In this document: in pieces, positions 6,250 to 41,391 of the stretch
Layout: each line of letters opens with the position of its first letter
Numbering within the stretch: position 1 is the first letter of the stretch
Assembly: GCA_017443945.1 (NCBI GenBank)
Contig: JAFSXS010000020.1
Location: forward strand, 1 to 41,391
Length of the DNA stretch: 41,391 nt
Origin: Synergistaceae bacterium
GTDB lineage: Bacteria; Synergistota; Synergistia; Synergistales; Aminobacteriaceae
Direction: 5' to 3'
The notes under the pieces: generated by a model
Told to the model about the DNA's origin: nothing
What the model saw: the letters and a program-made list of their open reading frames with translations, nothing else
The model's database searches: none
Made by a program: the position numbers and the translations under genes

Positions 6250-7179
6250 CTCTCTATATTTGCGCTTGAAATCCTCATATGATAATTTAATTCCTTCGCG
6301 GAGACTCGTTTTATCGTGCCATCCCATAGAATGAGCTTTGCTGACATCCATTAATTTGCGCGGAGTCCCGTTCGGCTTTGAAGTGTCCCATAAAATTTTG
6401 CCGTTGTAGCCGATAATTTCTGCTGTTAAGTGCGTTAAATCCTTGATAGAAATTTCTTTGCCGCTTCCTGCGTTTACTGTCTCATCGCCTGAATAATTAT
6501 TCATGAGAAACACGCACAATTCGGCCAAGTCATCAACAAATAGAAATTCTCTTAACGGGCTGCCGTCGCCCCAGCATGTAACTTCAGGGAGATTATTAAT
6601 TTTTGCTTCATGGAATCTGCGAATCAAAGCCGGCAAAACATGACTGTGTTCAGGGTGATAATTATCGTTTATTCCGTACAAGTTGCAGGGCATTACGGAA
6701 ATATAATCGGTGTGATATTGTTTGTTGAGAAATTCACAATATTTTAGCCCGGAAATTTTTGCGAGTGCATATGCTTCGTTAGTCTTCTCAAGTGAGCCGG
6801 TTAATAAATATTCTTCCTTGATGGGCTGAGGCGCGAGTCTCGGATAAATGCAGGAAGATCCAAGAAATTCAAGTTTTTTGCAGCCATTTTTCCACGCGGA
6901 ATTAATAACGTTCATCTCAAGAATCATATTTATATACATGAAGTCAGCGAGTGCCGCCGAATTTGCACCTATTCCGCCTACTTTGGCAGCAGCTAAGAAA
7001 ACATATTCAGGCTTCTCGTCAGCAAAAAATTTTTCTACTTCTGATTGACGCGTTAAATCTAATTCCGAATGTGTGCGCGTAATAATATTTGTATAGCCCT
7101 GCTTTGTGAGTTCGCGCAAAATTGCAGAACCTACCATGCCTCTATGGCCTGCTACATAAATTTTTGAGTCCTTAAGCAT
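6247..7179 (-). CDS. fcl: GDP-L-fucose synthase (GDP-4-keto-6-deoxymannose epimerase-reductase)
   Basis: A short-chain dehydrogenase/reductase of about 310 residues that converts GDP-4-keto-6-deoxy-D-mannose to GDP-L-fucose with NADPH. Visible motifs: cofactor loop GHRGMVG near the N-terminus, AAAKVGGI, the active-site serine segment LGSSCIYP, the catalytic YALAK tyrosine-lysine pair, and HSHVLPAL carrying the family's active-site histidine. These are the signature features of Fcl. I prefer ATG at 7179, giving MLKDSKIYVAGHRG as in characterised Fcl; a GTG at 7191 is almost inside the AGGAG site. GDP-mannose 4,6-dehydratase (gmd), normally the preceding enzyme, is not in the window. It points to fucose in surface polysaccharide, consistent with the glycosyltransferase and UGM-like genes further along. 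Confidence 0.9.
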   Translation of the reverse strand: MLKDSKIYVAGHRGMVGSAILRELTKQGYTNIITRTHSELDLTRQSEVEKFFADEKPEYVFLAAAKVGGIGANSAALADFMYINMILEMNVINSAWKNGCKKLEFLGSSCIYPRLAPQPIKEEYLLTGSLEKTNEAYALAKISGLKYCEFLNKQYHTDYISVMPCNLYGINDNYHPEHSHVLPALIRRFHEAKINNLPEVTCWGDGSPLREFLFVDDLAELCVFLMNNYSGDETVNAGSGKEISIKDLTHLTAEIIGYNGKILWDTSKPNGTPRKLMDVSKAHSMGWHDKTSLREGIKLSYEDFKRKYRE

Positions 7180-7252
7180 AAAACTTTTCACGCTCCTATA
7201 ATCTAATCAATTTATAAGCAACATAATATAGCGAAAACACTTTAAAATCTAT

Positions 7253-7282
7253 ACAAGCAAAGTCAAAAGCTAAAACCTTTTT
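7253..7282 (-). repeat. Dispersed intergenic motif, reverse-oriented copy
   Basis: Read on the minus strand it gives AAAAAGGTTTTAGCTTTTGA followed by CTTTGCTTGT. It matches 3952-3981 at roughly 26 of 30 positions by eye. Confidence 0.55.
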
Positions 7283-7326
7283 GCACGTCTACAGTTAAGG
7301 GTATTCCACGCACGGGCCGAGTAGTT

Positions 7327-7341
7327 CCCACCCGCCCACCC
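7327..7341 (-). other. G-quadruplex motif downstream of the RiPP operon
   Basis: The plus strand reads CCCACCCGCCCACCC, so the minus strand reads GGGTGGGCGGGTGGG: four G3 runs with single-base loops, the most stable class of intramolecular G4. It lies 40 bases past the stop codon of the last gene of the minus-strand peptide operon, so it would be in that transcript's 3' end. Confidence 0.7.
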
Positions 7342-7380
7342 GTTTAAAGTGTATTCCCCGCGATGAAAGAGTGAATATCG

Positions 7381-9534
7381 CTATATCTGACGTTCTACAA
7401 GTTCAGCAAATAAGCCGTGTTTATTCATTAATTCGTCATAAGTTCCCGACTCCGCGATTTTCCCGTTGTCAAGAACTAGAATTTTATCGCAGTTTCTCAC
7501 GGTCGAAAGTCTGTGAGCTATTATAATTCTCGTGCATTTAAGCTGTTCGAGTGAGTCAGCAATTATTTTCTGAGTGATATTATCTAGTGCGCTTGTTGCC
7601 TCGTCGAACAATAAAATTTTAGGCCTTGACGCTATTGCACGCGCGATTATTATTCTTTGTATCTGACCGCCCGAAAGTGTCCCGGCTCCTTCGCTTATGA
7701 ACGTCTGCATCTTCATGGGCATTGCGTTAATGTCGTCATAGATTCCGGCCATTTTTGCAGCTTCCCACGCGTCATTTTCCGTCAAGTTAGGCGCAGAAAT
7801 TATTATATTCGAGTAAATGCTTCCGGGAAATAATTTGCTATTTTGCATGACACAGCCGATATTTTTGCGAAATTCTTTAACGTCAAGAGTCTTTAAGTCG
7901 TGGCCGTCATAATAAATTACTCCCTTCTCCGGACGTTCAAAGCCTAATAATAAGCGCATTAACGTACTTTTTCCCGCACCGCTTTTTCCGACTATTGCAA
8001 CGTATTCGCCTTTGTTGATCTTCACTGAAAATTTGTCGAGAATTAACGGCGTTTTTGGCGAATATCTGAAGCTGACATTATTTAATTCTATAGTGCCGTG
8101 AATGGGCTTACTTTTTCCGTGCGATATTTCCGGAACTGACTCTAAAATCGGTCTCACCATGTCAAGCAGAGGATTTATTGACGCAATAGACAACGCTGCA
8201 CCGCTCAAAGCAACAAACGCCCCCGACAATAACCCGTATGAAGCAGTAAAAGCCATATAATCATCAGGCGAGACTCCTGCACTCACAGCAGACGAATATA
8301 ATATAAACGTTCCCGCTAAAGTTATTGCAGGCTGGAAAACTTGAGTCAGCTTCAACAATATAGGCGGGTCATAATTAAGTTTTGCAATTTGCCTGTATTG
8401 ATCTGCCCATTTCGCAAAGGCCCGGCGTTCTGAACCCGATAATTTAATTTTCTGGATTCCCGTTACAAATGCGTAAATTAACCCGTATTCTTTCGCAAGT
8501 AATTTCGTTGTGCGGGTCATTATTACTGAATGCCCATACGTCAACAGCACCGACGAAATAAATAACGCAGAAACTATTAATACAGCCGGACGAACAAGCG
8601 CAGGAGTAAATATAAAAATTTGCCGGAGATAAAATAAACTCATTATCGCAGTTAATCCCAATGAAAAAATTACGTTCGCCATAGTTGTACATAAATTGCT
8701 TGCTGATTCTGCACGCTGGGCAAGTTCTCCCGAAGAATACTGCTTGAAGAAGTCCGCCGGAAGTTCTATTACTCTCATCATTACAGCCGATTCAACATTT
8801 GCATTTGTCTTGATATTGATTCGTGATAGTGCAAGATTTTTCGCGACATTAAATAACGTTACTGAAATCCCCGACGCTATAATAAATATAAATACCGCAG
8901 CCGCCGCACTTATATTTTTACTGTAAATCGTCTGTGAATAAATAATCTGCGTCAAATAAGGCGTTACCATTGATACAAACGTTACACAAAGAGTTATTAG
9001 CAATATAGAAATTATGTCCGACAAATTTAAACTTTTCAGAGCGTGATTTATTAAATCCGTAATAGTGAGCTTTCTTGCCGGTAATGGACGATAAAAGCAA
9101 AGTGCTTCATGATGTAAATTTTTCTGAGTCTTGGAATTGATTCTAATTTTCCTGCCGGTCTCGTAGTCTTTATAAGTGTAGCCCCTGTAATCAGGAATCA
9201 ACGCAATATAACGGCCTTCTTTAGTCGACGCTAAATAAATCCCCGCCGAGTCTTTGTACCAGCCTTCAGTTAAAATTACTTCACGGCGCATAATCCCATT
9301 TGAGGCAAAAATTTTGTCGAGCTTGATATTAATTTCGTCGTCTTCTATATCTCTTATGCTGTCATAAATATTATAGAATCTCGCAATTTCTTCAAGTGCA
9401 CTGCTTGAGTCGTCCTCAACATCGAAAATTTTTCTGCCCATTATTGCCTCTGATATGCTGCTAAAGGCGTTAGAGAAAGAGTCTAAATCTGATTGCATTC
9501 TCGTGTGTATTTGTTCATCAAACCAGTTTGACAT
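7381..9534 (-). CDS. NHLM-type peptide exporter, ABC transporter without peptidase domain
   Basis: 717 residues. The first roughly 170 residues are a soluble region lacking C39 catalytic residues; then come a six-helix ABC membrane domain (about 170-460) and an ATPase domain. The ATPase has Walker A GKSGAGKST, signature LSGGQIQRI, Walker B ILLFDEATSALD and H-loop IIAHR. This layout matches the 'NHLM bacteriocin system ABC transporter, ATP-binding protein' family, whose partner is the peptidase-bearing transporter encoded just upstream; the two probably form a heterodimeric exporter. It is the last gene of the minus-strand peptide operon, 20 bases after the preceding gene. The non-peptidase N-terminal domain may bind leader peptide or be a vestigial accessory domain; this cannot be settled by reading. 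Confidence 0.85.
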   Translation of the reverse strand: MSNWFDEQIHTRMQSDLDSFSNAFSSISEAIMGRKIFDVEDDSSSALEEIARFYNIYDSIRDIEDDEINIKLDKIFASNGIMRREVILTEGWYKDSAGIYLASTKEGRYIALIPDYRGYTYKDYETGRKIRINSKTQKNLHHEALCFYRPLPARKLTITDLINHALKSLNLSDIISILLITLCVTFVSMVTPYLTQIIYSQTIYSKNISAAAAVFIFIIASGISVTLFNVAKNLALSRINIKTNANVESAVMMRVIELPADFFKQYSSGELAQRAESASNLCTTMANVIFSLGLTAIMSLFYLRQIFIFTPALVRPAVLIVSALFISSVLLTYGHSVIMTRTTKLLAKEYGLIYAFVTGIQKIKLSGSERRAFAKWADQYRQIAKLNYDPPILLKLTQVFQPAITLAGTFILYSSAVSAGVSPDDYMAFTASYGLLSGAFVALSGAALSIASINPLLDMVRPILESVPEISHGKSKPIHGTIELNNVSFRYSPKTPLILDKFSVKINKGEYVAIVGKSGAGKSTLMRLLLGFERPEKGVIYYDGHDLKTLDVKEFRKNIGCVMQNSKLFPGSIYSNIIISAPNLTENDAWEAAKMAGIYDDINAMPMKMQTFISEGAGTLSGGQIQRIIIARAIASRPKILLFDEATSALDNITQKIIADSLEQLKCTRIIIAHRLSTVRNCDKILVLDNGKIAESGTYDELMNKHGLFAELVERQI

Positions 9535-40896: not shown

Positions 40897-40941
40897 TTTA
40901 TGTGCTATAATTTACAAAATTCAGTAATAGGAGCATTGACA

Positions 40942-41067
40942 GTGATTAAATTTTCTGACATAATCGGCTTCACGGCTTCACGGCTTCACGGCTTCACGGC
41001 TTCACGGCTTCACGGCTTCACGGCATCACGGCCAAGAGTCTATCCTTTTAGCATATCACAAGAATAA
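40942..41067 (+). CDS. Short repeat-bearing ORF, possibly the OFF form of a phase-variable gene
   Basis: A GTG at 40942 follows AGGAG by 8 bases. The frame encodes 41 residues: VIKFSDII, then three rounds of the octapeptide GFTASRLH made by the 8-bp repeat, the third cut short after TASR, then PRVYPFSISQE and stop. With one repeat unit more, or two fewer, the same start would read on through a 65-codon open frame to a TAA at 41216-41218 that overlaps the next ATG. Whether either protein is made is not known. The gene is uncertain, but the ribosome binding site is good. Confidence 0.4.
   Translation: MIKFSDIIGFTASRLHGFTASRLHGFTASRPRVYPFSISQE
40965..41028 (+). repeat. 8-bp tandem repeat (CGGCTTCA), 7 perfect units plus one variant
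   Basis: Seven perfect copies of CGGCTTCA span 40965-41020. An eighth, CGGCATCA, has one change, and CGGCCAAG follows as a decayed unit. The unit length is not divisible by 3, and the repeat is open in all three forward frames, each giving the same cyclic octapeptide. Confidence 0.95.
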
Positions 41068-41217
41068 TTTACGCACAAGATTAAATAAATTTCTAGCAGG
41101 AAAAATTTTTTTGCTTCTTCGTGTAGTTTGCGGAGGAGTAATTTTTTGCTGTGAATATATTGCTGCCTTATTGCTGATAAATAAATTTTCACATTCAAAT
41201 ATGGAGGTCTGTTATTA

Positions 41218-41391
41218 ATGGGATTTATATATAATATTGTTAAGGCAAATTGTCCTGATTGTTTATTTCCGTTAATGAGATCGTGTTACAGAACGATAAA
41301 GCTGCCAAAAACTTTGATGAACAAGTACAAAATGTCTCGTATAATTTCGCGTGCTGAAAAATTAAGGCCGTATTACCGCGATGAATTGTCG
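41218..41391 (+). CDS. N-terminal part of an unknown protein, cut by the window edge
   Basis: ATG at 41218 with GGAGG at 41203-41207, a 10-base spacing. The 58 visible codons begin MGFIYNIVKANCPDCLFPLM and are basic overall (RSCYRTIKLPKTLMNKYKMSRI). A CPDC pair and a further Cys are near the start. I do not recognise the family. Its start overlaps the stop of the frame that would be joined to the upstream ORF by repeat-length change, so its expression might be coupled to the switch. Confidence 0.6.
   Translation, partial: MGFIYNIVKANCPDCLFPLMRSCYRTIKLPKTLMNKYKMSRIISRAEKLRPYYRDELS

Follow-up and report, generated by a model that had tools for sequence, protein, structure and literature searches.

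Introduction

In attenuation of the pyrBI type, a ribosome translating across the terminator favours readthrough. In phase-variable genes of the neuO type, the heptanucleotide array is placed in the enzyme gene itself. Such a gene is found in Escherichia coli K1, where a phase-variable capsule O-acetyltransferase carries heptanucleotide repeats (PMC13001214). In the pil1 locus of Streptococcus gallolyticus, the number of GCAGA repeats in a leader peptide determines whether the ribosome halts ahead of a terminator or comes to cover it, as concluded from variants, chloramphenicol treatment and mutants of the start codon, the stop and the terminator (PMC3894217). In the literature we searched, S. 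gallolyticus pil1/pil3 was the one described case of phase-variable attenuation; we found no report of repeat-driven phase variation in Synergistota, and searches on rumen repeats and on coupled upstream ORFs returned no relevant paper.

Here, we describe a locus at the end of a Synergistaceae contig (C20 of a 2.4 Mb assembly; 41,391 nt, hereafter the window) that is quite likely a phase-variable attenuator leader controlling a methyltransferase gene. As in pil1 and pil3, a repeat lies within a leader-peptide ORF and the frame would decide whether the ribosome stops before the terminator or covers it; the spacing is similar, with the short S. gallolyticus leader ending 39–49 bp and the OFF frames of the window 43–59 nt before the hairpin (PMC3894217). 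In contrast to pil1/pil3, the locus belongs to another phylum, the units are 8 and 7 bp long, the target is a probable surface-glycan enzyme instead of pili, the ON frame of the window crosses the hairpin and ends in a TAATG/ATGA overlap, and a single 5′ module recurs at many loci per genome. Whereas attenuation in pil1 was proven by experiment, here we infer it. The likeness to neuO consists in a heptanucleotide array combined with a surface-sugar-modifying enzyme and is closest for those genes of this genus that carry the array internally; the array of the window, however, sits in a separate leader. As in pyrBI, readthrough in our model is favoured by a ribosome crossing the terminator, but the switch would be a change in DNA length, not nucleotide supply or polymerase pausing. 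Changes in array copy number probably switch the neighbouring surface-modifying enzyme on and off, in a genus whose genomes carry many such arrays, mostly before cell-surface genes.

Results

All features described here lie on the plus strand, downstream of genes for a ZnuA-type binding protein, an ABC ATPase, an ABC-3 permease and a YdjM-like protein. TRF places a tandem array of the 8-bp unit CGGCTTCA at 40965–41032 (8.5 copies, 98% matches, one substitution in the final units), with a score of 129 against 59 for the second-ranked array across the 41 kb. The initial annotation had proposed a translational switch at this site, and its account of the frames is borne out by the sequence. A leader ORF (40942–41067) opens with a GTG, preceded by an AGGAG Shine-Dalgarno (SD) sequence 8 nt upstream (40929–40933), runs into the array and meets a stop at 41067; three relatives have ATG or GTG as the homologous start codon. 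A TAA is present at 40961. A second frame (41033–41218), which the ON leader would use, stays open from the array for 65 codons up to a TAA at 41216–41218 and overlaps the ATG of the next gene (41218) as TAATG. The frame arithmetic, too, was correct: adding 8 bp or removing 16 bp moves the GTG frame into the long frame. As assembled, the leader is OFF; it would be ON with one unit more, giving 94 residues, or with two units fewer.

The initial annotation overlooked the identity of the next gene, the terminator at 41111–41147 and the promoter-like elements at 40903–40911 and 40936–40964. Full-length FkbM (PF05050) homologs in the genus identify the ORF from 41218 to 41391 as the N-terminal end of an FkbM-type methyltransferase gene, truncated because the contig ends at 41391. 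Searched alone, the 58-residue FkbM fragment of the window had no Pfam match. Contig C12 of the same genome begins with 171 C-terminal FkbM residues and may carry the other half of the truncated gene.

Between the array and this target gene, sequence and folding identify a candidate intrinsic terminator. The terminator scan found a stem of 13 pairs with a 5-nt loop (41111–41141), followed by TTTTTT (41142–41147), and the hairpin strand folds with −14.4 kcal/mol (z −3.45). Both non-ON frames stop ahead of it, at 41051 and 41067 (59 and 43 nt before the hairpin, respectively), and the ON frame passes through it, ending 77 nt beyond the stem. The hydrophobic stretch remarked on in the initial annotation exists, but it is partly encoded by the T-rich terminator and is not conserved as protein. 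The hairpin is kept in homologs: across four sequences, pairing is maintained in 97.5% of hairpin cells, compared to 48–73% when slid by 1–3 columns. Covariation in these four sequences did not exceed that in shuffles, and the case for the hairpin thus rests on the terminator enrichment presented below.

The leader is present in three of the 43 genomes of the genus, with three homologous loci in two congeners. In G016, it follows the same upstream gene, has 3.6 units and is ON. G045 carries the cassette of leader and FkbM gene twice, flanking a chromate-transporter pair (L045:3635–5113 and 6399–7803); copy A (8.5 units) is OFF and has a weak hairpin (z −1.4), and copy B (6.6 units) is ON. Upstream DNA is 92.7% identical between G016 and G045 copy A, and their arrays differ by about five units (3.6 versus 8.5), the comparison being between species with one genome each. 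The leader peptide also gave weak matches in G018 and G024; that in G018 looked unrelated.

The initial annotation had made its proposal depend on conservation of the downstream frame in relatives, and an open frame from the array to the methyltransferase start is indeed kept in all four loci (the window and its three homologs). The post-array peptides of the four loci differ in length, and their frames diverge beyond the hairpin; the ON frame extends 38–58 nt into the methyltransferase gene in G016 and in both copies of G045. This divergence excludes the long-frame product as a conserved protein. Of the joined frames and their product, as initially envisaged, the ON frame is real, but the 94-residue protein is probably not functional. 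As judged from the aligned loci, the conserved feature is the open frame across the terminator into the next gene, not the peptide.

Is this a slipped-strand contingency locus, as had been suggested? Comparison of loci supports this reading well: copy numbers of 3.6, 6.6 and 8.5 and both frame states occur, a non-triplet unit lies inside an ORF (8 bp × 8.5 here; periods of 5, 7 and 8 genus-wide), gain or loss of units toggles an open frame that relatives retain, and copy number differs between close relatives, here between species.

A consensus scan returned two promoter-like elements. P1 (40903–40911) is an extended −10 element (TG-C-TATAAT) and the probable promoter of the leader transcript. 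P2 (40936–40964; TTGACA-N17-CATAAT), with 11 of 12 consensus matches and a TG preceding its −10 box, adjoins the array and contains the leader start codon in its spacer. The same element precedes arrays genus-wide, where the distance from its −10 box to the array ranges from −2 to +5 nt (82 arrays). Transcripts from P2-type elements (TTGACA-N17/18-TATAAT) would start within the array, leaving out the leader start codon. At 58 loci, an SD sequence with at least five of six matches lies upstream of TTGACA in 97% (14% in shuffles), a start codon 6–12 nt past the start of TTGACA in 93% (36% in shuffles), and a P1-like extended −10 element upstream of the array in 69% (2.9% in shuffles). From these frequencies, the leader start codon is probably transcribed from P1.

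The shared layout consists of an SD sequence, TTGACA-N17-TATAAT with the start codon in the spacer, and an array directly after the −10 box. When the 43 genomes of the genus were searched for SD-TTGACA-N16–18-TATAAT without requiring repeats, 32 had matches; the reversed pattern gave single matches in a few genomes. A tandem array began at most 8 nt from the −10 box in 83 of the 98 modules with enough sequence, compared to 4 of 500 shuffles. The periods of these 83 arrays were 7 (68 arrays), 5 (14) and 8 (one), with none of 3, 6, 9, 12 or 15. A recount of 82 arrays gave 41 distinct units, none of which has a stop in any of the three frames (0.90 expected for each). ON frames were called in 21 of the 82 arrays and in 11 of the 35 in-gene arrays, close to the one third that random phase predicts, with calls based on one chosen start codon per leader and ambiguous at a few loci (L109, L141).

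When a GCT-type 7-bp array was also required, 20 of the genus's 43 genomes had the pattern, and 145 other genomes from the phylum had none. Two of 42 genome-collection matches, L107 (Oceanospirillaceae) and L145 (Planctomycetota), were set aside as chance, given that the pattern is absent from every other genus of the phylum. In public data, the genus is represented by Synergistaceae MAGs, some of them labelled Fretibacterium; goat, reindeer and red deer guts are the main sources.

Other FkbM genes of the genus follow arrays of GCTCACA, CTTACGG, GGCTCAC, GTGGCTC, GTTCGCG, TCACAGT or TCGGCTG. In each of the 12 array-bearing FkbM genes examined, the period is 7 or 8 and the frame stays open between the array and the gene start (7 ON, 5 OFF), the start being fixed by homology and the four 8-bp loci not being mutually independent. 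For leaders of other genes, the open-frame count is partly circular, because the search for the next gene was made close to where the leader ends.

At least six further module arrays were seen in the window's own genome (L211, L212, L214, L215 with two, L079). Their units are TGGCTCG (twice), GACAC, GGTTCACA, GAAGCAG and GACTCAG, and they precede MBOAT, GDP-mannose dehydratase-like, GT11 and methyltransferase genes as well as one gene without a Pfam match. Elsewhere in the genus, loci with similar upstream DNA carry different units (L009 versus L126; L118, L127, L128 and L139), several of them with different downstream genes, as if the array were an exchange point for expression sites. Contigs often end within or just past an array (L231, L232, L269, L217, L080, L081, L104). 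A sampled population with mixed unit numbers may be the cause; simple breakage at repeats fits too.

Arrays occur in three placements: in the gene itself, in a coupled leader, and in a leader with a terminator, as in the window. In-gene arrays lie at the 5′ end of full-length enzyme genes, for example GT2, WbsX and sugar-transferase genes. With leader-type arrays, the leader ends at the next start or close to it, at a distance of −4 (ATGA) in 16 cases of the repeat-blind set. Terminators were found at 16 of 33 leader-type and 1 of 15 in-gene arrays in our first set (Fisher P 0.008), and at 9 of 45 and 0 of 35, respectively, in the repeat-blind set (Fisher P 0.004). In nearly all leaders with a terminator, the OFF-frame stops fall upstream of the hairpin.

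Downstream genes are mostly related to surface glycans: GT2, GT8, GT11, GT56, GT61, WbsX, sugar transferases, LicD, FkbM and other methyltransferases, and MBOAT and Acyl_transf_3 acyltransferases. A GDP-mannose dehydratase-like enzyme and a cytidylyltransferase are also encoded downstream of arrays. Some arrays precede genes of the nitroreductase family (four) or radical SAM genes (four), with no obvious surface-glycan function, and those at L121 and L091 stand before List_Bact/InlB-type repeat-protein genes.

Discussion

How might the locus work? Array, frames, terminator-like hairpin, gene overlap and genus-wide recurrence can all be read from the DNA, and from these we infer the following course of events. 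Transcription would start from P1, and ribosomes would initiate at the GTG (40942) and translate through the 8-bp array. Replication slippage there would alter unit number within a population and, with it, the frame in which ribosomes exit. In two of three frames, the ribosome would halt at 41051 or 41067, ahead of the hairpin (41111–41141); the hairpin would form, transcription would terminate at the T tract and the methyltransferase gene would be silent. In the third frame, the ribosome would traverse the hairpin, hold it open and reach the TAATG, where it may restart on the methyltransferase gene. The switched gene is thus likely the FkbM-like methyltransferase, through attenuation plus coupling, and surface-glycan methylation would come under control of the array.

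Might translational coupling do all the work? In that case, the leader frame would decide whether ribosomes arrive and restart at the TAATG, with the hairpin a bystander or minor terminator. Many leaders of the genus lack a terminator and stop at an ATGA or a short way from the next start, so that coupling alone may suffice there. In the window and its homologs, however, the terminator-like hairpin is significant, terminators are enriched in leader-type over in-gene arrays, and the ON frames of G016 and both G045 copies run 38–58 nt into the gene, a poor arrangement for restart. We therefore regard coupling as the sole mechanism as rather unlikely. P2 invites a different reading, in which it is a working promoter and the array forms the variable 5′ end of an untranslated leader, its units tuning transcription or mRNA stability instead of frame. 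P2 is closer than P1 to the sigma-70 consensus and lies within a few bases of the array everywhere, yet no period is a multiple of 3, units are free of stops, an SD sequence and a start codon are retained ahead of the array, and one third of arrays lie in full-length genes whose only start precedes the array. Such a role of P2 appears very improbable.

Finally, the array could be frozen and the OFF state could represent a decayed or mis-assembled leader that does not switch. Short-read assembly can misjudge array length, and our comparison covers one genome per species. On the other hand, loci whose flanks are 92.7% identical differ in copy number, both phases occur within one genome, and the open frame past the array survives in OFF copies, all of which makes a frozen array hardly credible. 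Returning to the attenuator model, P2 is not required for it. P2 might instead be a dedicated part of the switch, a promoter whose melting start region is the array itself, raising the rate of slippage and perhaps seeding arrays. We hold this to be unlikely; it would explain why more than 40 different units all lie within a few bases of a −10 box from which transcripts without the start codon would arise. If true, the genus carries a reusable hypermutation cassette.

An attenuator logic like that of pil1 thus appears to have arisen independently in Synergistota, where one 5′ module stands before many surface-glycan genes of a ruminant-gut genus and feeds three outputs: in-gene, coupled leader and attenuator leader. 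Three output types behind one module make it testable what an attenuator adds over a plain frame switch. If our reading is true, each genome would combine many ON/OFF surface states, which bears on phage escape, host immunity and strain variation in the rumen.
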